From positions 615,828 through 679,827 of the forward strand of contig NC_135220.1 of assembly GCF_052324685.1 (NCBI RefSeq): 64,000 nt of DNA. Direction: 5' to 3'. The notes below the pieces were generated by a model that was not told the origin of the DNA, did not search any database, and saw only the letters and a list, made by a program, of their open reading frames with translations. Below are positions 38,297 through 64,000 of the stretch, piece after piece; position 1 is the stretch's first letter; every line of letters starts with the position of its first letter. This DNA comes from Brachyhypopomus gauderio (taxonomy: Eukaryota > Chordata > Actinopteri > Gymnotiformes > Hypopomidae). The translations under genes were made by a program, and so were the position numbers.

Positions 38297-41200
38297 CGGT
38301 GGCACCTCTGGGGATGGTGAAATAACTGCGAGGAGACGGATCCCAGCACTTGGCCACTGTGAGACTAATGGGTCTGTAGAGACACAGAGCAACAGACAGC
38401 AGCATTAACAAAGAGTCAGGCATACAGTACCAGTCGGCTGCGGTATGCGGTGTCTCTACTCACCCGGGCTTGGAGACAATCTCTCTTAGAATCCTGACGG
38501 CGTCATCATTGCTCATGTTCTCGAAGTTCACGTCGTTTACCTGCAGAAGCAACGCCTGAGCATCATTACTGCCGTAATTGTTGTTTCAACATGTGTAAAA
38601 CCACTACAACACAATCTGCATGCATGATCAGCAGGAAGCAGTCAGCATTCTTGTGGTGGCCCGAAATGTGGTTAATTTTGAACTCGCTTATCGAGTCAAT
38701 GTCCAAGTCACTTCTGGAAGGAACGCAGAAGACACCGTACACGCGCAGCTCAGATATGATTCACACGGTCCACATGTTCCACGATGATCCCTCACATGAT
38801 GCTGACAAAATACTGTAGTGTAAAGGTGAAACTACTGACTGCATGAGGGCCACAAGCCTACGGCAACAAAAGATCAAAAGGTCGTGTGGGAGGAAGGAAG
38901 AGAGGGAGCAGAACTGGGCCTCAGGGAGGGAACCTACACGAGTGACGTACACAGCTCTAAAGAACCACGACCCTGATGGGACCTTTTTCAGTTCAACTAT
39001 ACCAGTGATGTCGTTTTGAAAGTGACACTGGACCTTACCGACTCTCACCACATCCTCCACCACTAAAATGATAATCTGACAAGATTAACCAAAAATTGTT
39101 TACAAATTGTTTACAGTGACAACAAAGGGGTAAAATCAGGATATCTTGATATATTTTTGTCTCATAAAAGTGAAACTATGCCATGCTGCATGTTGTAACT
39201 CATCTGTCCTCAAAAAATCAATCTCACTGCAGCTCCTGTCCTGTAACTGTCACGTTGAGGACTCCGGCCCCTCCCTTTTGGGCGTGTGTTTACGTCGTCT
39301 ACGTCTGTGTATCTCCGTGGGTGCGGATATGTCTTGTGATCATCCGTCTCACCTGTGGCTCGTCTCGTAATCACGTGGGACTTATGTGGTTTGTCTACTT
39401 AATGTGCGTGCACACAGTGTCTTGTGCTCGTCGTTGTCTGAGTCATACACGTGTGTGGTTGTTACCGTGTTCTGTGAGCGCTGTCTGCGCTATTTGTACC
39501 ATTAAACGTCACGCTCATTCAAAGTCAAGAAGGATTTCTGTCTCGTTCTTCACTACGCCCCGATCCTGACAGTAACACGTCTCCTATATGTGTAACAGTG
39601 TCTTCTGTCCCTGTAACACGTCTCATACACCTGTAACAACATGTCTCCAATCCCTGTAACACGTCTCCTATACGTGTAACGGTATGTATTATGTCCCTGT
39701 AACACGTCTCCTATACGTGTAACAGTATGTCTTCTGTCCCTGTAACACGTCTCATACACCTGTAACAGCATGTATTATGTCCCTGTAACACGTCTCATAT
39801 ACCTGTAACAGCATGTATTATGTCCCTGTAACACGTCTCCTATACCTGTAACAGCATGTATTATGTCCCTGTAACACGTCTCCTATACCTGTAACAGCAT
39901 GTATTATGTCCCTGTAACACGTCTCCTATACCTGTAACAGCATGTATTATGTCCCTGTAACACGTTTCATATACCTGTAACAGCATGTATTATGTCCCTG
40001 TAACACGTCTCATATACCTGTAACAGCATGTATTATGTCCCTGTAATACGTCTCATATACCTGTAACAGCATGTATTATGTCCCTGTAACACGTCTCATA
40101 TACCTGTAACAGCATGTATTATGTCCCTGTAACACGTCTCATATACCTGTAACAGCATGTATTATGTCCCTGTAACACGTCTCATATACCTGTAACAGCA
40201 TGTATTATGTCCCTGTAACACGTCTCCTATACGTGTAACAGTATGTCTTCTGTCCCTGTAACACGTCTCATACACCTGTAACAGCATGTATTATGTCCCT
40301 GTAACACGTCTCATATACCTGTAACAGCATGTATTATGTCCCTGTAACACGTCTCCTATACCTGTAACAGCATGTATTATGTCCCTGTAACACGTCTCCT
40401 ATACCTGTAACAGCATGTATTATGTCCCTGTAACACGTCTCCTATACCTGTAACAGCATGTATTATGTCCCTGTAACACGTTTCATATACCTGTAACAGC
40501 ATGTATTATGTCCCTGTAACACGTCTCATATACCTGTAACAGCATGTATTATGTCCCTGTAATACGTCTCATATACCTGTAACAGCATGTATTATGTCCC
40601 TGTAACACGTCTCATATACCTGTAACAGCATGTATTATGTCCCTGTAACACGTCTCATATACCTGTAACAGCATGTATTATGTCCCTGTAACACGTCTCC
40701 TATACCTGTAACAACATGTATTATGTCCCTGTAACACGTCTCATATACCTGTAACAGCATGTATTATGTCCCTGTAACATGTCTCATATACCTGTAACAG
40801 CATGTCTCCAGGCTCAATTCGGCCATCGGCGGCCACCGCACCACCTTTCATGATGGAGCCGATGTAGATGCCCCCATCACCCCGGTCGTTGCTCTGCCCC
40901 ACAATGCTGATGCCCAGGAAGTTGTACTTCTCTGTGAGAGAGAGGGACAGGAAAACCCCGCGAGGTTAACTCCAACCACCGCGCCCAGAGTACGCTGGAA
41001 AACACCTTACCGGAGCTGTTTCTGAGGAGACACAGGGGCGCTCACCCATGTTGAGTGTGACGGTGATGATATTGAGGCTCATCGTGGAATCCGTTATGCT
41101 GCTGAAGGAGGATGACTGCCGAGATGGTTCAGAAAAACAAAACGCACCCCTTTAACTCGACGCTCACGCTCACAACACCCTGGCTGTGCCTGCTGCGTCA

Positions 41201-42134: not shown

Positions 42135-45100
42135 GCACACACACACTCACACACACACACAGGCACACACACACACACACACACGCAGGCACACACACAC
42201 ACACATGATTAAGGACTGACATCTTTTAAAGGTGCACACCCTAAAATTACACATTGTTTGCAAATCTTTTTTTTTTAAACACTCACCTAAATTTATATTA
42301 AACCTTTTAAGACCTGATTATGAAAATTATTGTACCAAAACTGTTCCAAATGCAACGTTCCCTCATGTAACACTAGGGGGCACATGAGTCAGTGAGCTAC
42401 ACGTCTCCTGCTGAGTGCTGGAGGCATACGTACAGAGACACGATCGCGGCTGTGACTCTGGGTAACACCGCACCCGCTGGAAGATTCGACACAGGCGAGC
42501 AGGACACTTCAACCGGCCAAAACACTCCAACGCCATGGGTGTGGCTAATATTCTGCTAGCACATGCCTGCGCACGCCCCCGTGTTTACACAATCGCACGC
42601 AGGAAAGAGCGTCAGGGTGCGCGCTCAATGGGTCGGGACCAGAGATCTACGGATCCGGGACCACGGTGTTGCAGGATCTAATCGCTCACGCACATTTTAA
42701 AGGGTCACATTCCACCGTTCGTGTGCCAGTCGTACAAAGAAACACATTCCGTCCCCCTCTGTGCGTGCGGGCTGTCAAGCTCCTGTGGGAAGAGGCGAAA
42801 GGCGTGCAGACTCTGAAGTGATATGCATGTTTTCAGGGTAAAAGAACTTCTGGAACGTTCTTTCACTCTCCCTGGTCTTGCTCCTCCCCAGCAGCCGCGC
42901 TTAACCCCGCACAGAGCGGCAGAGCTGCCGGGCAGCTCCACTTCGTAGCGCTGCTGGGGAAACGGAAAGACAGATGTGGGCAAAGCAGATGTAATCATCT
43001 CCATCACAGCCCAGCGCCTGGGGACGGATGCCCTGTAGCACGGCTGCCTGGATCTGATCCCTGAGCGAATGGCCTCTGCGTGGCTCGTCGTGCTGACATA
43101 CTCAGATGTTTTGTTAATTCGTTTATTTAGTTAATTTATTTAACTTTAATTCATCTTTGAATATAAGGCCTCGCAATATGGATAATGCAAAAAGCAGGAA
43201 TTATAGGAATAAGTCTAATACCATATAACATGTATATTGTGCTGTGGGCATCCTGACATTTTTGACACAATATAAGCTGCTTCTTATATCTTAGACATGA
43301 TATGAATGAAAAATAATTTGACTTGATTTAGTCAGATTCACATTACAACAAATAGAGTTAAATAAGTGACTGTGCAGATGCAATATATTCATTAATGATG
43401 CTGCATAAAGTTTCAGATAACAAAGAGCAGGTATCTGTTCTTTAAAAATGAAATTTCACATTTTAAGTAAAACCACAGCATAAAAACTTCATTCAACAGT
43501 AGCACTATTCGCCCGTTGCACTAACTAGTTCTGTTGCGAATTAGATTCAACTCTAAATGGTTGATAAGGCAGGCAAAGCTCTACACACAGGACCTCTTAC
43601 CTCTACAGCTGCAGCTACGCGCCTCTGGCGAAATCTAAAGCCCAGAGAAAACGACACCCTGCTGCGCCGAATCCAGTGTGCAACATTCAGCGAAACCACG
43701 CTCGGTCAGCGCGTGCCGTCTGCAGCAGAAGCGTGACAAAAGAGCACGTGGGAGGGCGCGCGCCTCCGGAGCGGAGGGGTCGTGGCGCGAGGACATTCGG
43801 TATGACCCCCCTCGCCTCAGGTGTTCTGGACTAGAGGGTCTCAACCTTTTAAAGCCCGAACGACACCACCGAACCGAACGACACCACCTGACCTTTTACA
43901 CGACCTGGGGGTGGGCGTCTGGTGTCAGTTGTCAGTCAACTAGCCACATATATTAAATATATATCTGATTTTAAAAATCCCATCAAATTACTTTTGTGTT
44001 TTAATTGCAATAATTAAATACTACATTCAAAGGTGGCATTTACAAAACAAAGATTCTTTTCAGAAGTGAAGTTCAACTATTACGCTACTGCTAATTCATG
44101 CCGCAGATGGTCAACTGTGGTCCCTACTAACCGACCCGAGATCAGGTGTTGTGCTGAACTCCGACTACACGGCAGAATCCTACTTCTCTCGTTTGCCCGC
44201 ACATAAAGACACTACAGATGATAAGATTTCAGCGTTTTCTTCAGATTTAAGTTTTAATGATCGATAACAATAACATAGTTGCTATACCGAAGTTCACTTC
44301 TGACCACGTTACTTCGTAATATTCTTTTGTTCCTTTTTTGTTATTTTGTTCATTACTGACAACCTTACAACCTAATTGTCTAATTTGTCCAGTTAGGACA
44401 AAACTAGAGTGTTCAATGAACTGTTATAATACTCACAGTACTCACAGGACTGAAATGTCTGGTTAACGTCTTTTTTATTTTGGTGACTTATCTGGATGTG
44501 TAGGGTATTCCACATGAAGCACGTGTCTCTACGTTCAACAAGGGTTATTTTAATAAGGGCAGTATCATTTTTGTGACGCCAACACAATGCTTCACCTACC
44601 GTTAAGTCCTGAACTACAAAGGCAGTACAATAAATTAACGTCTTTTCAGTTCCAATCTCATCTAGACGACTATCACATCACAGACACGCTGCTTCAAAAT
44701 GATTTACAACAGCCTCACCGTGAAAGTCAGTTACAACATTATCAAGACAATTTGCAATCAATACCCTGTCCGCTCACATCAGCACTGACCAGCCCTGCGT
44801 CAATCGTATCCACTCTTCACACACCAAGCATATGTGCGCATATACACACAAATGTAAATGTGCCATATTTTGTTAATTGTGATTTTTCACCGCAATCAAA
44901 ATTTGTCCTCCGCTTTTTACCCATCTCTGCAGTTAGAACACACACACACACTAGTGATTACTAGGGGGCTGTGGTGCACACGTGCCCAGAGCGGTGGGAA
45001 GCCCTAGCCCGGTGCCCGGGGAGCAGTTGGGGTTAGGTGCCTTGCTCAAGGGCACCTCAGTCATGGCCTCAGGTCTGGGAATCGAACCCACGACCCTCCG

Positions 45101-46393
45101 GTCACAAGACCAGTTCCCTACCACCACCAGACCACGACTGCCCAGAAGGAGATGTATGCCTGGATGCATTTATCTCCTAAGCAAATTATCTGTAAGGAAC
45201 TTGATCACAGACAGTGGATCATCTTCTAGAAACCTCCCTTATGTTCATGTCTCAAGTTATTTGAACTACAAAATGCCATTTTTGTCAGGGCTGGCTCGGA
45301 TGCCGTGCCATCTACCGCCACTAGGGGCGCCCGAGCAAGGGATGGCTCGGATGCCGTGCCATCTACCTCCACAAGGGGCACCCGAGCCAGCCCTAGACTT
45401 CAGCAACGCAATCAGCAATGATCTGTCTCACCTGTTGCCATGGCTTCTTAAGGAAGCCCGTGGAGACGGATCATTGCTGATTCGTTGTGGTTATGTCGTT
45501 GCGTTCTCAGCCTCTCCCTGTTTACTCTGTTGCTGCGTTTGCCTCTGTAGGTGTCCCGTCACCTATCTCTCCTGTCTGTTTTCTCTGTCTTTTTTCGAGT
45601 TTCTATCTCCTGCGTCGCTCAATGACCTCCCTCAAGTTTTCCTCAACCTGTTTATCTTCCTATCCCGTTGCTGTTTGTGTGGGAAGGGTTTATTGTTTGA
45701 GCAGTTTTTTATTGCTAGCAGCCAGCTACTTCCCCTGGCGCCCTTGGTTTCCTTTATTTCTTTCTAAGCGTTGAGAAGTCCGCGTTTATTTAGGCACTCC
45801 TTTTAGTTCTGTTTTGTGGCACTTGGTTCCACCTCTCCCTTGCTCTCTCTAACGCGGTGTGTTGTTCCTTACCCACCAGCGTTACATTTTAACTCTGTAT
45901 AGACACAACGAGTCCTGGCATGCAGCCGATGAACAACATGTGCTTTCAAAAGCTTAAAGAACGGGAAGAAAGAAATAGCTACAAACAGAGGGACAGTAGT
46001 TCACCACTCAGACTATTTCCTTAAATAGCACGCGCAGGGATCTGGCCTGACACACATCTCATGTGTTCTACATTCATTTGCCCGGGAGAATATGATTAAT
46101 ACACGCAGATACAAATGCAGTGCTGGGTAGCTGCTTCTCCACGGCACAATGTTCACGGCTTCTGTGTGAGACTGCTTTAAGTTGCTCTACATCAAAGAGA
46201 CAGGCAAAGAGCTCAAATCTGAGTGGACCCCAGACCAGCATGCAAGATTCAGAGCGCAAAACTTCTGCGGATGATTTATAACACGGAATTCCTCCGGTAA
46301 ATGCACAACAGGAATGCTCACGATGACTCAGATATCTATATTTTCTTTTTATTTTTGGCAGTCATATGCGTCAGCACATACATATATACAAAC

Positions 46394-48647: not shown

Positions 48648-51600
48648 AATGTGCCGTGGGGTTGGTTATTCTTTTAAGAGTGGGTGGAATGTTTTTGCTT
48701 AGAGCTAGACACAAACCTAAGGCAGTGAACTCCTGTGTGTGTCTACAAACCCACAGAGGGATCATTGCAAACTGTAATGAAGTCCCAGATACTGCAGAAA
48801 GTCAGGGAGTCAGACATAGCTGAATCTTAATCTTAACTATGGTTCTATTAGAATTTATGAATGTTTTAAAAAGATGGCTGAATGTCAGTAGCTGGCTTAT
48901 GTGTCATATATTTGATTACAAAAGAGAAGAATGAATGTGAAGGTTGCTGTTCCTATAATCCTTCAGAATCTACTCATAATGATAAGCTACTCCACCAGAG
49001 AGGTGTGTTCATGACGAGCCCACAACAGAGAGGTGTGTTCATGACGAGCCCACAACAGAGAGGTGTGTTCATGACGAGCCCACAACAGAGAGGTGTGTTC
49101 ATGACGAGCCCACAACCGAGAGGTGTGTTCATGACGAGCCCACAACCGAGAGGTGTGTTCATGACGACCCCACAACCGAGAGGTGTGTTCATGACGACCC
49201 CACAACCGAGAGGTGTGTTCATGACGACCCCACAACCGAGAGGTGTGTTCATGACGAGCCCACAACCGAGAGGTGTGTTCATGACGAGCCCACAACCGAG
49301 AGGTGTGTTCATGACGAGCCCACAACCGAGAGGTGTGTTCATGGCTCCCTCTAGAGGACGGAAGTTGCCATTTCTCAAGCTTCGTATTGGCTATGGCTGC
49401 ATTGTTCTTTCGAGTATTCTGACGTAAAGAGCACAACATTCAATAACCACTAATTACAGGAGAAAACATTACCTACACAAACTACACTAAATGCACACAT
49501 TTATATACAAATACATTAGCACTTATTCTACACTTTAATGTTATATTCATATTATACTGAATTAAAACAGTCCTTGGGCTAGTTACAGACAAATAGCGAT
49601 TTTTCATCTGATTTTTAAATGAGCAGAATGAGAAACAAAGGCTTTCACACATTAGCCTGACACATAATCCTGCCTGCTTTTTTCATAGGGTGTACACACA
49701 GCATTCATGCTATTGTGCTTCTGAAGCTTCTGAGCCCTATAAAAGGCAGGGGGCAGCAGGCACGCAGGTAGGGGGGAACGGGTAACTCCCATGGGGTAGA
49801 TGAGAGCAGCTGCAGCCCCCTGCCGAGCCCTCGGGGTGAAGATGGGTGCTTTTAACGTCTGCTAATCCGGCTTAGCCGCGCAAGGACGGCCGAACGCCCA
49901 TTCTCCTCATCCCCGGTTAAATTTATTCGACATCACCAAGGAACAGTCCTCGCCACAAAGAGAGTGGGCCAGAGATAACGTCTGGTTATTTACTGATGCT
50001 TACAGTGCGGCTTTTGTGATGGAAATTTAGGGAGATTTACTGTGGGAGAGACACACAACTGGGAATCCATGGAGTTAATCTCCAGGAAAATTGGCTTGCC
50101 TGAGAGAAAAAGGAACACGGGGAAAAATGAGATCGGAGGCCAGGCCTTCCCAGACCACGCCACTAGATGGCAGTAAATACCACAGACAACCGCTGGAGGT
50201 AGACGAAAGTTAAAGCCCTGAGCAGCCCACAGAGGGCAAAATCGAGCCGTAATGTTCCGCCCAGATTCAAGAGACGAGGAAGAAGCAGACTGTACACACT
50301 CGACAGTGTGCACACCGTCCGACTTCTGACGTTTCCGAGCATAAAGGGACTGCTTGATGAATGTGTTTGTGAGACAAATCAAAGGTTTATGCAGAAACAA
50401 ACTAGCTTCTGGTTTATCAAATGAATTAGTTTCAGGTAACACCTAGCTATCAGTTTCCTTCTGCACAACTACTAGAGAATGGCATGACAACTTTCTCTGT
50501 CTCAGCACAGTAGGACACCTTTGCAGTTTAAATCAGTCTCAAGTCATTTATATTACAAAAACCGCACACCTCACCTCTGTTCTGCGCAGTCACACAGATC
50601 AGTGGGCCGGTGTGTCACAGTTTACAAACACACACACACACACACACACACAGATGAGCAGGTAGGTGTGTCACATTTTCTGCTTTTAGGCAGATAAGCA
50701 AATGTTGTATGCTGGCAGACACACACACACGGTCTACAGTGTGACTCTTTTTGGTGAGCCTCAAAGATGAGACCTGTGGTGTGTGTATATGACTCCCGGT
50801 CGGGCTATAACCAGATCTTCTGTCCAGCTGGACAGCAGACATCTGCTCCTGCAGTCACTGATGTTCAGAGAGAACAGAGCTTCTCTGCCCGTCCTATCTG
50901 TGTGGATGGATCCTGGCTGATGCAGCTTCTTACAACAACATAGTCTTGGGTTCGATGTCAGGTCATTTGTGAATCACTACTCCTAGTTACTGCTTACCAG
51001 AGACATCACATCTAGAAAGGATTGGTTCTTGACATTTTTCATCTTGAAAGCTTTATATCAGTGTGAAGTATATATCTTGGTCTCAAAGACCATGATGTAA
51101 GCCATGATGGATGTGGTTTTAATAAGAGTTCTAAAATGTATTAACATGTACACACTGCCAGTGTGTGAACAGCATAAATGGTGTGTTTATGTCATGTAAC
51201 ACCATGTAACACAGCAGGTTATCACCATAAAGTGATTATGGATGCCATGTGTAATACGTATACAGCTGAACGGGGTTTTATGAGTGTGCTTCAGTCAGAG
51301 GACCCGGTGGAGAACACTCACTGGAAGGAGGGTGGCCTGGAGTCTCCGATGCCCCCAGTTCGCTCCAGTGGGGGGGGCAGCTCAGGGTGGCTCTCCGTGC
51401 AGTGAGATCCGCTGTCGGAGTGTGTGCTTTCAGTCAGCACCAACTACAGCCAAAGACACACACACACACACACACACACACAGAGACAAAGACCTCAGGA
51501 AGAGCCTCTCCACAGTGGCTGTGCATACATAAGTGATGCAGGAAGAGACCAGAACAGGGTGCATTTAGTGAGCTGGGAGAGAGTGCACAGCACACGCGCT

Positions 51601-52324: not shown

Positions 52325-54741
52325 GGGGGGGGGGGGGGGTTCAAGATGGCACCCGTCTCACTTACCCAGGATACCACTCTGCCATTGAAGCAGGGCAGCT
52401 TGGCGTTGTCATCGGAGATCTCCTCTTTGACCACACTGCACAGAGGATGCACACAGCACAGTTAGGGACTCTGTGTGAGCCATGAGTCTGAGCATGTCTG
52501 AGTCTGAGCCTGTCTGAGTCTGAGCCTGTCTGAGTCTGAGCCTGTCTGAGTCTGAGCATGTCTGAGTCTGAGTCTGAGCATGTCTGAGTCTCAGCTCCAG
52601 GCCGCATCTATTTTCAAAAGCTGAGCCACACTGGAAGCATGTCACGCTCCAACAGTGGAATTTTCCACTTCACTCCCAGCCACTAGCGGTCCACAATGAG
52701 AAAGCCGAATGGCCCTGTTGACCGAAACCACTGGAAACTCCTCCAACTGACAGGCTGGCTTCATTTGTACCTAACGCACATCACTTCAGCTGCTGGGAGT
52801 TCAGTTGTCCGGGCTGCACATCCTGCACCACAGAGAGTAAAGGAGGAACAGAAGCGCTTACATCTCTCGCAATGTTTATGAGAGTCTGGACGTGTGTGTG
52901 GAAGAAGTGTGTATGTGTGTGTGTGTCTTTGTGTCTGTTTTTGTGTGTGTGCGTGTGTTTGCTAGAGAGATAGAGAGGTGCAGTGAGGGTGTTAGAGCAC
53001 AGGAGGGGTTATTAATAGAGTGATCTAGTGTGCTAGCATGGGGCCGCCAGTGTTCCTCCCAGGCTGTAAATTCCCCACAGAAATACCATGCAGTTACCCT
53101 TTAACCCTCTAAGACATGGTTCAGCAATCACACACCTGCTAGCCCCCAATCACCCTGTACAACTCAAATATACACATTCACACACACACATGCACACAAA
53201 AACTGAGTTATTAAATACATCAGCATATGCAAAGCACAATGAGCACCGGGTAAGAAGGTAACACTTTTGTGTGCGTTGCCAAGCCTTGAGAAATCCCTCC
53301 AGCTTGCTGATATTAGAACTGTGTCCTTTGAGATTCTCCAGCACATCCAGGTTCCCATGACCCAGGGTGCTGTGCTGCTGGGAGATTGAAGGCCAGGGTG
53401 CCTGTACATGGCGATGGCATTGGCGATGACGATGGCGCTTTTGTTGAGATTACATTTTTTAAACGCTGGGGTCTATGGCTTGCTTCAGAGCTCCAGGCTT
53501 TGCAGAGGAAGCCAGACTGGAGCTGCTGTCATGGGTAGGAAGTGCTTGTCTCCTCCCAAGAGATCCTCCATAATACGCGTGCACTTGCTGGGAAGTTTGT
53601 GATGGTGACCTTAAGGAAGTGTGGTCTGTGCAAACATGCACAGGAGAACAGGAGGGGAAACGCCTCTGGACAGGAGTGAAGCACACGTTAGGTTGTTTGT
53701 GAAAAAGACCCTGGTTAAAAAAAGAGCCTTAATGAAATATAAAGCAAGAAATCATTCAAGTGCCAGAACGATATGTGTTCAGCAGTAATGAACATCCAAG
53801 GGGCGGCACCATAATGAGATGTGTAAATGTGTAATATAACTGAACACGTACCCCCTGACCCCCTGACCCTCTGACCTCAATTGAAACCTATAGCGGGGTG
53901 TGAAGCAAGGTGTTCCTGGTGGTCGATGACAAGACTGACATTGTTGATGAGTGTGCTTCTACACTCTACTCCAGGGACTTCCTGTCTACTCCAGGGACTT
54001 CCTGTGATGCGGAAACCTTCCAACCAGGAGCCTGAATTAATCCAGATGCTGGCCAGCCAGCGCGAGATCCAGCGACCAGTCAAAACAAGTGGCCATACTG
54101 ATCCAGCCGGAGGGAGCGTTGGCTAAACGATGCCTCTGGAGAGCATTTGTGTAGCTCTCTTGGCCTGCATAGTGCCGAAAAACCATCTCATCACTCCATC
54201 TCACTCTCTCCGTCTGATTCACTCCATCTCACTCATGTCATCTCATTCACTGCATCTCACTTGCTCTAACTTACTCGCGTCTTACTTGTACCATATACTG
54301 TGTATTTGTAAGTGTTAGCATTTTTGGGTTCTTGAAAAGTAGCACCATAAATTATTTATTGTTTATTATTATTATTTATGCAGGCTGAAGGCTGAATCCT
54401 CTCTGGCCAAATGTCCCCAGAAGCTCCCTGCTCAGACCCTAATAGACCCTATATTACATAGTGAAATAAGGTGGCTTAAAAACACAAACCTCTGCCATCG
54501 TTGATCTGCTAACTGGAATATAAGGTGCTCTCTGATTTCCCTTTAGCTGCCAATCAGTCAAAGATGAAGCTTAATTCCAGTATTTATTAATACTTCCTAG
54601 TAAACATTGTTTAGAACACTAGATCCCACGAGGCCAAGTTACGTAAACACACACACACACACACTCACACACACACACACTCACACACACACACACTCAC
54701 ACACACACACACACACACTCACACACACACACACTCACACA

Positions 54742-61849: not shown

Positions 61850-62853
61850 CACTATACTGCCAAAAGTATTCGCTCATCCATCCAAATTATTGGAATCAGG
61901 TGTTTCAATCACTTCCATGGTCAGTGTAAAATTAAGCACCTAGGCCGGCGGACTCTTTTTACAAACATTTGTGAATGAATGGGTCGCTCTCTGGAGCTCA
62001 GTGAATTCCAGCGTGCAACTGTGATAGGATGCCACCTGTGCAACAAATCCAGTTGTGAAAGTTCCTCACTCCCCAATTCCACAGTCGACTGTCAGCTGTA
62101 TTATAAGAAAATGGAAGTGTTTAGGAACGACAGCAGCTCAGCCAATAAGTGGCCACGTAAACTGACGGAGCGGGGTCAGCGGGGTCAGCGGATGCTGAAG
62201 CACATAGTGTGAAGAGGTCACCAACATTCTGCAGAGTCAATCACTACAGACATCCAAACTTCATTTGGCCTTCAGAATAGCTCAAGAACAGTGGATGTGT
62301 GTTATCTGGAGTGATGAATCACGCTTCTCCATCTGGCAATCTGATGGACGAGTCTGGGTTTGGCGGTCGCCAGGAGAACGGTGCTTGTCTGACTGCATTG
62401 TGACAAGTGTAAAGTTTGGTGGAGGGAGATTATGCTGTGGGGTTGATTTTCAGGAGCTGGGCTTGGCCCCTTAGTTCAAGTGAAAGGAACTCTGAATACT
62501 TCGGCATACCAAGACATTTTGGACAATTCTATGCTCCCAACTTTGTGGTAACAGTTTGGAGCTGGCCCCTTCCTCTTCCAACATGACTGTGCACCAGTGC
62601 ACAAAGCAAGGTCCATAAAGACATGGATGGCAGAGTCTGGTGTGGATTAACCTGACTGGTCTGCACAGAGTCCTGACCTCAACCCCATAGAACACCTTTG
62701 GGATGAATTAGAGCGGAGACGGAGAGCCAGACCTTCTCGTCCGACATCAGTATGTGACCTCACAAATGCGCTTCTGGAAGAATCTCATATTCTTCCAGAC
62801 TCAGCTCATATGTGAGTGAAGGAAGGTGAGCGAAAACTTTTGGCAATATAGTG
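61850..62853 (+). mobile_element. Tc1-like transposon, about 1.0 kb, decayed
   Basis: Ends are inverse complements: CACTATACTGCCAAAAGTAT at the left and TTTTGGCAATATAGTG at the right. Transposase fragments lie inside (WCVIWSDESRFSIWQSDGRVW-like DDE segment about 62290-62370; a region with SPDLNPIEHLWDELER-type coding near 62670-62720), but stops and frame changes break it into pieces from 61979 on. The left flank ends in TA; the right TA is mutated. Confidence 0.85.
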
Positions 62854-62880
62854 AACATACATATACATCTACATCTATAT

Positions 62881-63812
62881 ACACTCACCAGCCACTTTAT
62901 TAGGTACACCTGTCCAACTGCTCATTAACACAAATGTTGAATCAGCCAATCACATGGCAGCAACTCAATGAATTTAGGCATGTAGACATGGCCAAGGTGA
63001 TCTGCAGTTGAAACCAAGTATCAGAATGGGGAAGGAAGGTGATCTAAGTGACTTTGAACATGGTATGGTATGGAGTCTTTCAGAAACTGCTGATCTACTG
63101 GGATATTCACACACAACCATCTCTAGGGTTTACAGAGAATGGTCAGAAAAAGAGAAAATATCCAGTGAGCGGCAGTTCTGTGGGAGCAAATGCCTTGTTG
63201 ATGTCAGAGGTCAGAGGAAAATGGCCAAACTGTTTTGAGCTGATAGAACGCCAACAGTAACTCAGTAACTCAAATAACCAGTCATTACAACCAAGGTAAG
63301 CAGAAGAGCTTCTCTGAATGACAACACGTCGACCCTTAAGGTGGATGGGCTACAGCAGCAGAAGACCACACCGGGTGACACTTCTGTCAGCTACAAACAG
63401 GAAACTAAGGCTACAATTCACACAGGCTCACCAAAACTGGACAACAGAAGATTGGAAAAATGTTGCCTGGTCTGAGGAGTCTCGATTTCCGCTGAGACAT
63501 TCGGATGGTAGGGTCAGAATTTGGCGTCAACAACATGAAAGCATGGATCCATCCTGCTTTGTATCAACGGTTCAAGCTGGTGATGGTGCAATGGTGTGGG
63601 GGATATTTTCCTGGCACACTTTGGGCCCATTAGTACCAATTGAGCATCGTATTGTTGCTGACCATGTCCATGCCTTTATGACCACAGTGTACCCATCTTC
63701 TGATGGCAACTTCCAGCAGGATAACGCACCATGTCATAAATGGTGCAAATCATCTCGCAAATCATCTCAGACTGGTTTCTTGAACACGACAATGAGTTCA
63801 CTGTACTTGAAT
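62881..63812 (+). mobile_element. Second Tc1-like transposon family, 3' truncated
   Basis: Begins ACACTCACCAGCCACTTTAT, a common fish Tc1-like terminus. Transposase pieces follow: a helix-turn-helix part at 63026-63238 (LSDFEHGMVWSLSETADLLG) and a DDE part at about 63430-63730 (NVAWSEESRFPLRHSDGRVR, QQDNAPCHK). The frame is broken between the two. The sequence stops matching at about 63812, where another element begins. Confidence 0.85.
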
Positions 63813-64000
63813 TAGGGTTGTCCCGATCCGATATTTGGATCGGATCGGCCGCCGATATTAGCAAAAAATGCGTATCGGTATCGGATCGGCAGACACGAGA
63901 AAATGCCGATCCAGACTCCCGATCCAGTTTTTTTAAGTCCCATCCCGGTTTTCCTGCGCACCCATTTAGATAATCCATTCCAGTTTTTACTAGCAAAATC
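63813..64000. mobile_element. Start of another DNA transposon, cut by the window end
   Basis: Begins TAGGGTTGTCCCGATCCGAT with palindromic GGATCGGATCGG and CCGATATTAGC words, typical of a dispersed fish DNA element. It interrupts the Tc1-like element to its left. The right end is outside the window. Confidence 0.55.

Follow-up and report, generated by a model that had tools for sequence, protein, structure and literature searches.

A 43-bp minisatellite repeating the exon 8 donor junction of dvl1 in Brachyhypopomus gauderio, with further junction-seeded arrays in the same genome

Within the window, by which we mean the whole 64,000-nt stretch of Brachyhypopomus gauderio DNA analysed here, a tandem array of 43-bp units begins at the 3' end of a coding exon and repeats the splice donor of that exon many times over. 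This raises the questions of where such an array came from and which of its donors the gene would use. The gene can be identified as dvl1, since its DEP peptide finds Dishevelled-1 as best match (6e-50, versus 4e-43 for DVL-2), and with human DVL1 as the query its exons line up in order between 57355 and 34760 on the minus strand. The peptide encoded by exons 8 and 9 matches Dvl PDZ domains. The features that matter for the argument, in window coordinates and with a slash at the splice position, are the following:

40792..40931, minus strand: dvl1 exon 8, 140 nt, PDZ coding, placed by its PDZ match and by three dvl paralogues.
40790..40791, minus strand: true GT donor of intron 8, CAG/GTATAT, at a CAG/GT position common to the three paralogues.
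38541..40791, minus strand: intron 8, 2251 bp; the array makes up its first ~1.2 kb.
38464..38540, minus strand: exon 9, joined to exon 8 in phase 0; its end before GTGAGT was set by eye.
39572..40805, minus strand: 43-bp minisatellite derived from the junction, 29 units with the last one partial, delimited with TRF and by unit-by-unit stepping.
40763..40805, minus strand: unit 1 of the array, made up of half A, ACATGCTGTTACAG/GTATATGAG, and half B, ACATGTTACAG/GGACATAAT.

Exon 9 starts with GTAAAC (window 38540), so that the acceptor of intron 8 is AG/GT; read as a donor, this site outscores the true donor of intron 8. Elsewhere in dvl1, a highly uniform 30-bp array of 11.5 copies (99% matches, window 48998-49343) lies between exons 3 and 4, and a 16/22-bp array (window 52483-52591) lies some 50 nt upstream of where exon 2 begins (52434, as placed by protein match). 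Frames that by eye resemble fragments of Tc1/mariner transposases are found at window 61979-63815.

TRF reports a period of 43, 28.7 copies and 94% matches across 39572-40805, and stepping through the array gives 29 units, in agreement with the roughly 29 copies of the preliminary description. On the minus strand unit 1 starts at 40805, 14 bases inside exon 8, and the last 14 bases of the exon are the first 14 of unit 1. Exon and array therefore overlap and no gap separates them, as that description had held, and the donor lies where it had been placed, at 40792/40791. The claim that every unit contains the last 12 bases of the exon was too strong in its 'every', with ATGCTGTTACAG present in 23 of the 29 units, the exon's own copy counted. 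As to the figure of about 28 decoy donors, a bare GT occupies the donor place in 28 of the 29 units, the true donor included, but only 24 decoys have CAG/GT; this motif occurs in 25 units with the true donor included, CACGT stands in its place in three, and the GT is lost in one. The nine-base donor sequence CAGGTATAT is identical to the true one in 15 of the 29 units, the true one among them, which leaves 14 identical decoys. The 14-base suffix of the exon recurs exactly 22 times in intron 8, and none of the words of the same length from further up the exon (last 120 exon bases tested) occurs in the array. The exact consensus unit has 10 occurrences in the genome, all of them at the dvl1 locus. 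Array length is given throughout as assembled, in one assembly.

The unit itself appears to be composite. Its second half (...GAGACRTGTTACAGGGACAT) also aligns with the exon end, and its donor is dead. This second alignment scores 27; 98 control windows in the upstream part of the exon reach at most 21, and 12 of 20000 shuffles score as well. Because both halves align with the exon end, two copies of the junction seem to be joined in each unit as a dimer, and in one of them the GT seems to have been changed to GG. The second half of unit 1 keeps an exon-like ACATG, and at the distal end of the array unit 28 gives a 36-base match to the exon end plus the intron start, with three differences, within the following stretch:

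39561..39687, minus strand: units 27-29, the most diverged and probably the oldest; TTGGAG before unit 28 matches TGGAG of the exon.

The direction of copying is indicated by three dvl paralogues in the same genome (L010-L012), in which 118-120 of the 140 exon bases are identical and the CAG/GT is shared, the donors themselves being GTGCCT, GTGAGG and GTGAGT. In the 1500 intron bases taken from each paralogue there is no CAGGTATAT and no such array, the best match to the unit is just 21-22 of 43 bases, and TRF reports only a 23-bp repeat of 2.7 copies and a CA repeat, both in one of the three. As the exon end is common to the paralogues and the array is absent there, the array derives from the exon and not the reverse. 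Together with the finding that the repeats carry the exact 3' suffix of the exon, this comparison strongly supports growth by amplification of the exon-intron junction, which is what the preliminary description had proposed. First, some 20 bases spanning the donor of exon 8 would have been duplicated inside the intron, and two diverged copies, one of them with a dead donor, would then have formed the 43-bp dimer. This dimer may have been amplified by unequal exchange or slippage, the latest large step probably being a duplication of 12 units (516 bp).

The consequences of using a donor other than the first can be read off directly, from the following feature and from the length of the unit:

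40741..40743, minus strand: TGA met in frame on reading exon 8 into the array, 48 nt past the exon.

Splicing at donor 2 lengthens the exon by 43 bases, which is not a multiple of three, and the resulting frameshift runs into a stop, while transcripts spliced at donors 3-28 include the TGA at 40743-40741. A premature stop follows from each of the 27 alternative GT donors. Both the frameshift with the next donor and the in-frame TGA met on reading into the array had been anticipated, and both are borne out here.

The true donor is weak, with a score of 1.84 against a position weight matrix; such scores serve only to rank sites. Four GT sites in the part of intron 8 outside the array outscore it, the best reaching 6.89 at +1439, so decoys of the true donor's strength are common. 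The 1.23 kb of the array hold 15 sites that score no lower than the true donor, versus 2.59 per kb in the rest of the window (both strands), which makes the array about five times denser than background. Since the true donor is weak and identical to 14 of the decoys, local sequence cannot explain the choice of donor.

Predicted RNA folding distinguishes donor 1 from most of the decoys. Its unpaired probability is 0.163 versus a decoy median of 0.0040 with window 150 and span 100, and 0.095 versus 0.0011 with 240 and 160; with window 80 and span 40 the advantage is smaller (0.059 versus 0.024) and decoy 3, in unit 3, lies above donor 1. When the sequence upstream was shuffled, donor 1 exceeded the decoy median in 60 of 60 trials and reached its real accessibility in just 7 of 60. 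When the unit flanks were shuffled, it exceeded the median in 16 of 60, and in 4 of 60 the decoys were as inaccessible as in the real array. These results suggest that the accessibility effect is due to the units' own pairing. The fold of the first four units is of ordinary stability compared with shuffles (-36.5 versus -34.2, sd 3.8).

A second consideration is exon definition. In those passages of PMC9225289 that deal with competing donors, near-equal donors under exon definition lead to preference for the upstream one, more strongly so in the class with a short upstream and a long downstream intron, and minigenes with two identical strong donors use the upstream one exclusively. Taken over all events, the same passages put the preference for the downstream donor at about 60%, and they describe skipping of larger exons in which both donors are very weak. 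Intron 7, upstream of exon 8, is short at 114 nt and intron 8 is long at 2251 bp, and by these lengths the pair should fall into the short-upstream, long-downstream class, in which the donor nearest across exon 8 would be favoured. Donor 1 should then win by exon definition, perhaps with help from RNA folding. Transcripts would be spliced from donor 1, and pairing between the array units would conceal most decoys. The array would be removed with the intron and leave the protein unchanged, which would make it essentially neutral, with occasional slips leading to premature stops. The preliminary description had offered two alternatives, that the first donor wins or that length variants of the array tune dvl1 output, and the first of these appears to be the better. 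We regard the explanation as a whole, in which a junction-derived array leaves with the intron, donor 1 is used and the protein is unchanged, as quite likely.

In the second alternative, leaky decoys would send frameshifted or stop-containing mRNA to decay and the length of the array would set the leak. The material for such a leak is present, in the form of 24 CAG/GT decoys, 14 of them with the true nine bases, and of premature stops behind all 27 alternative GT donors, and two downstream repeat units of human IFI6 are reported to serve as donors in the relevant part of PMC4526556. The junction-derived arrays of the lancelet, known as mirages, are nevertheless reported to splice normally in the corresponding passages of PMC3087553 and PMC3902484, and exon definition as treated in the passages of PMC9225289 favours the upstream donor. 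With these points weighed, tuning of dvl1 output seems unlikely, and we retain the reading in which the first donor is used.

The assembled length of the array calls for separate consideration because of a long internal identity:

40200..40699, minus strand: 500-nt stretch, first copy, with a perfect repeat 12 units further on.
39684..40183, minus strand: the same stretch, second copy, equal to the first shifted by 516.

This 500-nt run recurs exactly at a lag of 516 bp, or 12 units, and reflects either a very recent block duplication or an expansion made by the assembly. Recent block duplications are generally normal in minisatellites, the array sits in a contig of 25 Mb, and a false expansion would affect neither the exon junction nor the diverged distal units. 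The perfect identity itself speaks for an artefact, as does an aberrantly assembled mirage in a draft genome, described in a passage of PMC3087553. On balance we doubt that part of the array is a false expansion.

It is also conceivable that intron 8 is removed stepwise, the AG/GT of the units serving as dual-specific or recursive sites. The presence of CAG/GT in 25 of the 29 units agrees with this. A polypyrimidine tract is expected before the AG/GT of a recursive splicing ratchet point, and that at unit 2, the one unit measured, is poor, with a pyrimidine content of 0.53 compared with 0.88 at the exon 8 acceptor and 0.65 at that of exon 9. At 43 nt, moreover, a unit would make a short vertebrate intron. 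Genes with tandem repeats are enriched in dual-specific AGGT sites, and UBC constitutes a tandem array of such sites that are shown to be used (PMC10809524, in its passages on these genes). The dvl1 array resembles UBC in its tandem AGGT sites (25 of 29 units), each a potential donor or acceptor, but UBC consists of 228-nt coding units that are in frame and used, whereas the dvl1 units are intronic, out of frame and poor as acceptors. Stepwise removal is thus highly improbable. A chance likeness of some unrelated intronic repeat to the exon end, for which only the shortness of the 14-base exact match speaks, is rejected as having next to no probability, since the suffix recurs 22 times with the junction in register and a 36-base match is found at units 27/28.

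An array that amplifies an exon-intron junction and is spliced out is of a known kind, and the dvl1 array is not unique. The minisatellite of human IFI6 has an in-frame unit of 12 bp. To go by the title of Turri 1995 and by the part of PMC4526556 that concerns it, it gives multiple donors. Repeat units beside an exon serve or could serve as donors in both genes, and the dvl1 array likewise starts at its exon's donor. They differ in frame, which the 12-bp unit keeps and the 43-bp unit of dvl1 does not, all its other GT donors leading to a stop.

Amphioxus mirages are presented, in the passages of PMC3087553 that define them, as minisatellite-like duplications of exon-intron boundaries with AG/GT signals and length instability, whose splicing is apparently regular. 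They are known from Adh3, the globins BflGb6 and BflGb9 and troponin C, with similar imperfect repeats in PGBD5 (passages of PMC3087553 and PMC3902484), and the Adh and troponin C mirages generate no aberrant mRNAs according to the part of PMC3902484 that concerns them. Like the dvl1 array, mirages are tandem duplications across an exon-intron boundary with AG/GT signals in many units, and their units are homogenised while their edges differ; in dvl1 the unit spans the boundary, as seen in the 14-base overlap and the 22 exact suffixes, and CAG/GT is found in 25 of 29 units. The dvl1 array differs in belonging to a fish gene, in lying on the 5' splice site side, and in its approximately 29 dimeric units of 43 bp, compared with mirage units of 10-72 bp in Adh3 and 150-160 bp in the globins. 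Internal tandem repeats at exon-intron boundaries have also been found in human segmental duplications (PMC2812944, in its passages on such repeats). These too are minisatellites that can alter splicing, but they belong to recent primate paralogues, with a mean of 30 bp x 4, whereas the dvl1 array is longer, belongs to a developmental gene and shows no sign of a new intron. By comparison with the amphioxus mirages and the human IFI6 array, the dvl1 array is most likely a spliced-out minisatellite of this known kind.

We then asked of the 797-Mb genome where three consensus donors CAGGTRAGT occur at spacings of 10-40 or 41-70 bases. The matches listed include at least 26 arrays, 16 with the shorter spacing (contigs C1, C2 to 26.8 Mb) and 10 with the longer one (C1-C4), and represent a sample. 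Open frames that end at the first donor were searched against Pfam, some of them also against PDB. Six of these 26 arrays start at the donor of a coding exon and repeat the end of that exon; unit lengths and copy numbers for L060-L069 rest on the first part of the arrays:

L044: LDLR class A exon, 45 bp x 13 (PF00057, 9.2e-13); 17-base suffix x7.
L048: Bicaudal-D (BicD) exon (PF09730, 4.2e-18, and a PDB match); 18-base suffix x11.
L057: ubiquitin-like (UBL7-like) exon, 30 bp x 3.2 (PF00240, 1.5e-5, just under the cut-off; PDB 1x1m 'SB132', which we take to be UBL7, 9.8e-12); copies imperfect, with an exact suffix of just 4 bases and the likeness judged by eye.
L065: RNA polymerase III RPC1-like exon, 36 bp (PDB 1.8e-11, no Pfam match); 11-base suffix x2.
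L066: Krueppel-like factor (KLF-like) exon, 17 bp (PDB 2.5e-21); 10-base suffix x3, of low complexity.
L059: EGF-like exon, a weak case, 12 bp x 31 (PF23106, E 0.0076, below the cut-off; PDB 0.67); 9-base suffix x12.

Two further arrays lie at or near the donor of a coding exon and do not repeat the exon end. At L049 an exon whose PDB match is IP3 receptor type 1 is followed by 16 intron bases and then by the array, whose units, judged by eye, do not copy the exon end; the array of L058 (plus strand, exon end at index 2957) runs right from the donor of an M1 peptidase exon and contains no copies of the exon end or of CAG/GT. A plus-strand frame at window 44958-45767 has a start much like that of the frame just upstream of the L058 array, and looks like a dispersed repeat. 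At L069 the open frame before the array has no match in the Pfam and PDB searches made. For the other 18 of the 26 arrays no exon junction was found, four having no open frame of at least 20 residues and the remaining frames being searched in part. Since Pfam missed both the IP3 receptor exon of L049 and the RPC1-like exon, such Pfam negatives carry little weight. Moreover, the GTATAT donor of dvl1 itself escapes the search pattern, so that the true number of cases is likely larger.

As a control, the reversed motif was searched in the same way and gave 965+1871 matches versus 476+672 for the donor motif at spacings of 10-40, and 385+1321 versus 368+468 at 41-70; among the matches listed, most of those to the reversed motif fall in one huge array. 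An excess of donor arrays read from match counts would therefore be misleading, the reversed motif being the commoner, and we claim no such excess, only that several arrays grew from real junctions. Counted as distinct arrays on C1 among the matches listed, there are at least 10 for the donor motif versus at least 4 for the reversed motif, a small comparison. At four edges judged by eye, out of five reversed-motif arrays (four on C1, one on C2), there is no exon junction. A further control with far-edge, opposite-strand peptides (10 peptides from 10 of the first 16 arrays) produced a single match, Peptidase_M1, at L058. Judging by sequence, junction-seeded minisatellites thus recur in this fish, and the dvl1 array is one of several.

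In our literature searches, conducted mostly outside subscription papers, we found no earlier report from a fish, the position of the sea bream growth-hormone intron minisatellites aside. These minisatellites are cited in a passage of PMC3045353. The passages on the point in PMC3151243, PMC3045353 and PMC2688266, which cover intron gain, sea bream intronic minisatellites and the abundant minisatellites of Nothobranchius, contain no junction-derived array. In the literature examined, the amplification process has so far been described for amphioxus and some human loci. The novelty here lies less in dvl1 itself than in the recurrence of such arrays across a fish genome.

A gene of the Wnt pathway thus carries 24 CAG/GT decoys, 14 of them identical to its donor over nine bases, and is presumably still spliced correctly. 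In the dvl1 array the effects of position and context can be told apart from that of donor sequence, a question for which artificial minigenes are usually used. The six additional arrays among the 26 sampled suggest that in a fish minisatellites arise repeatedly from exon-intron junctions, which bears on the gain of introns and exons and on the automatic annotation of repeats beside exons. We consider it fairly probable that donor-side junctions in this vertebrate genome give rise to minisatellites time and again, through a general mutational process that repeatedly amplifies the ends of coding exons together with their donors in conserved genes, and that splicing tolerates up to dozens of donor copies. 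If this is true, junction arrays would be natural experiments in competition among multiple donors, and may be raw material for new exons and introns.
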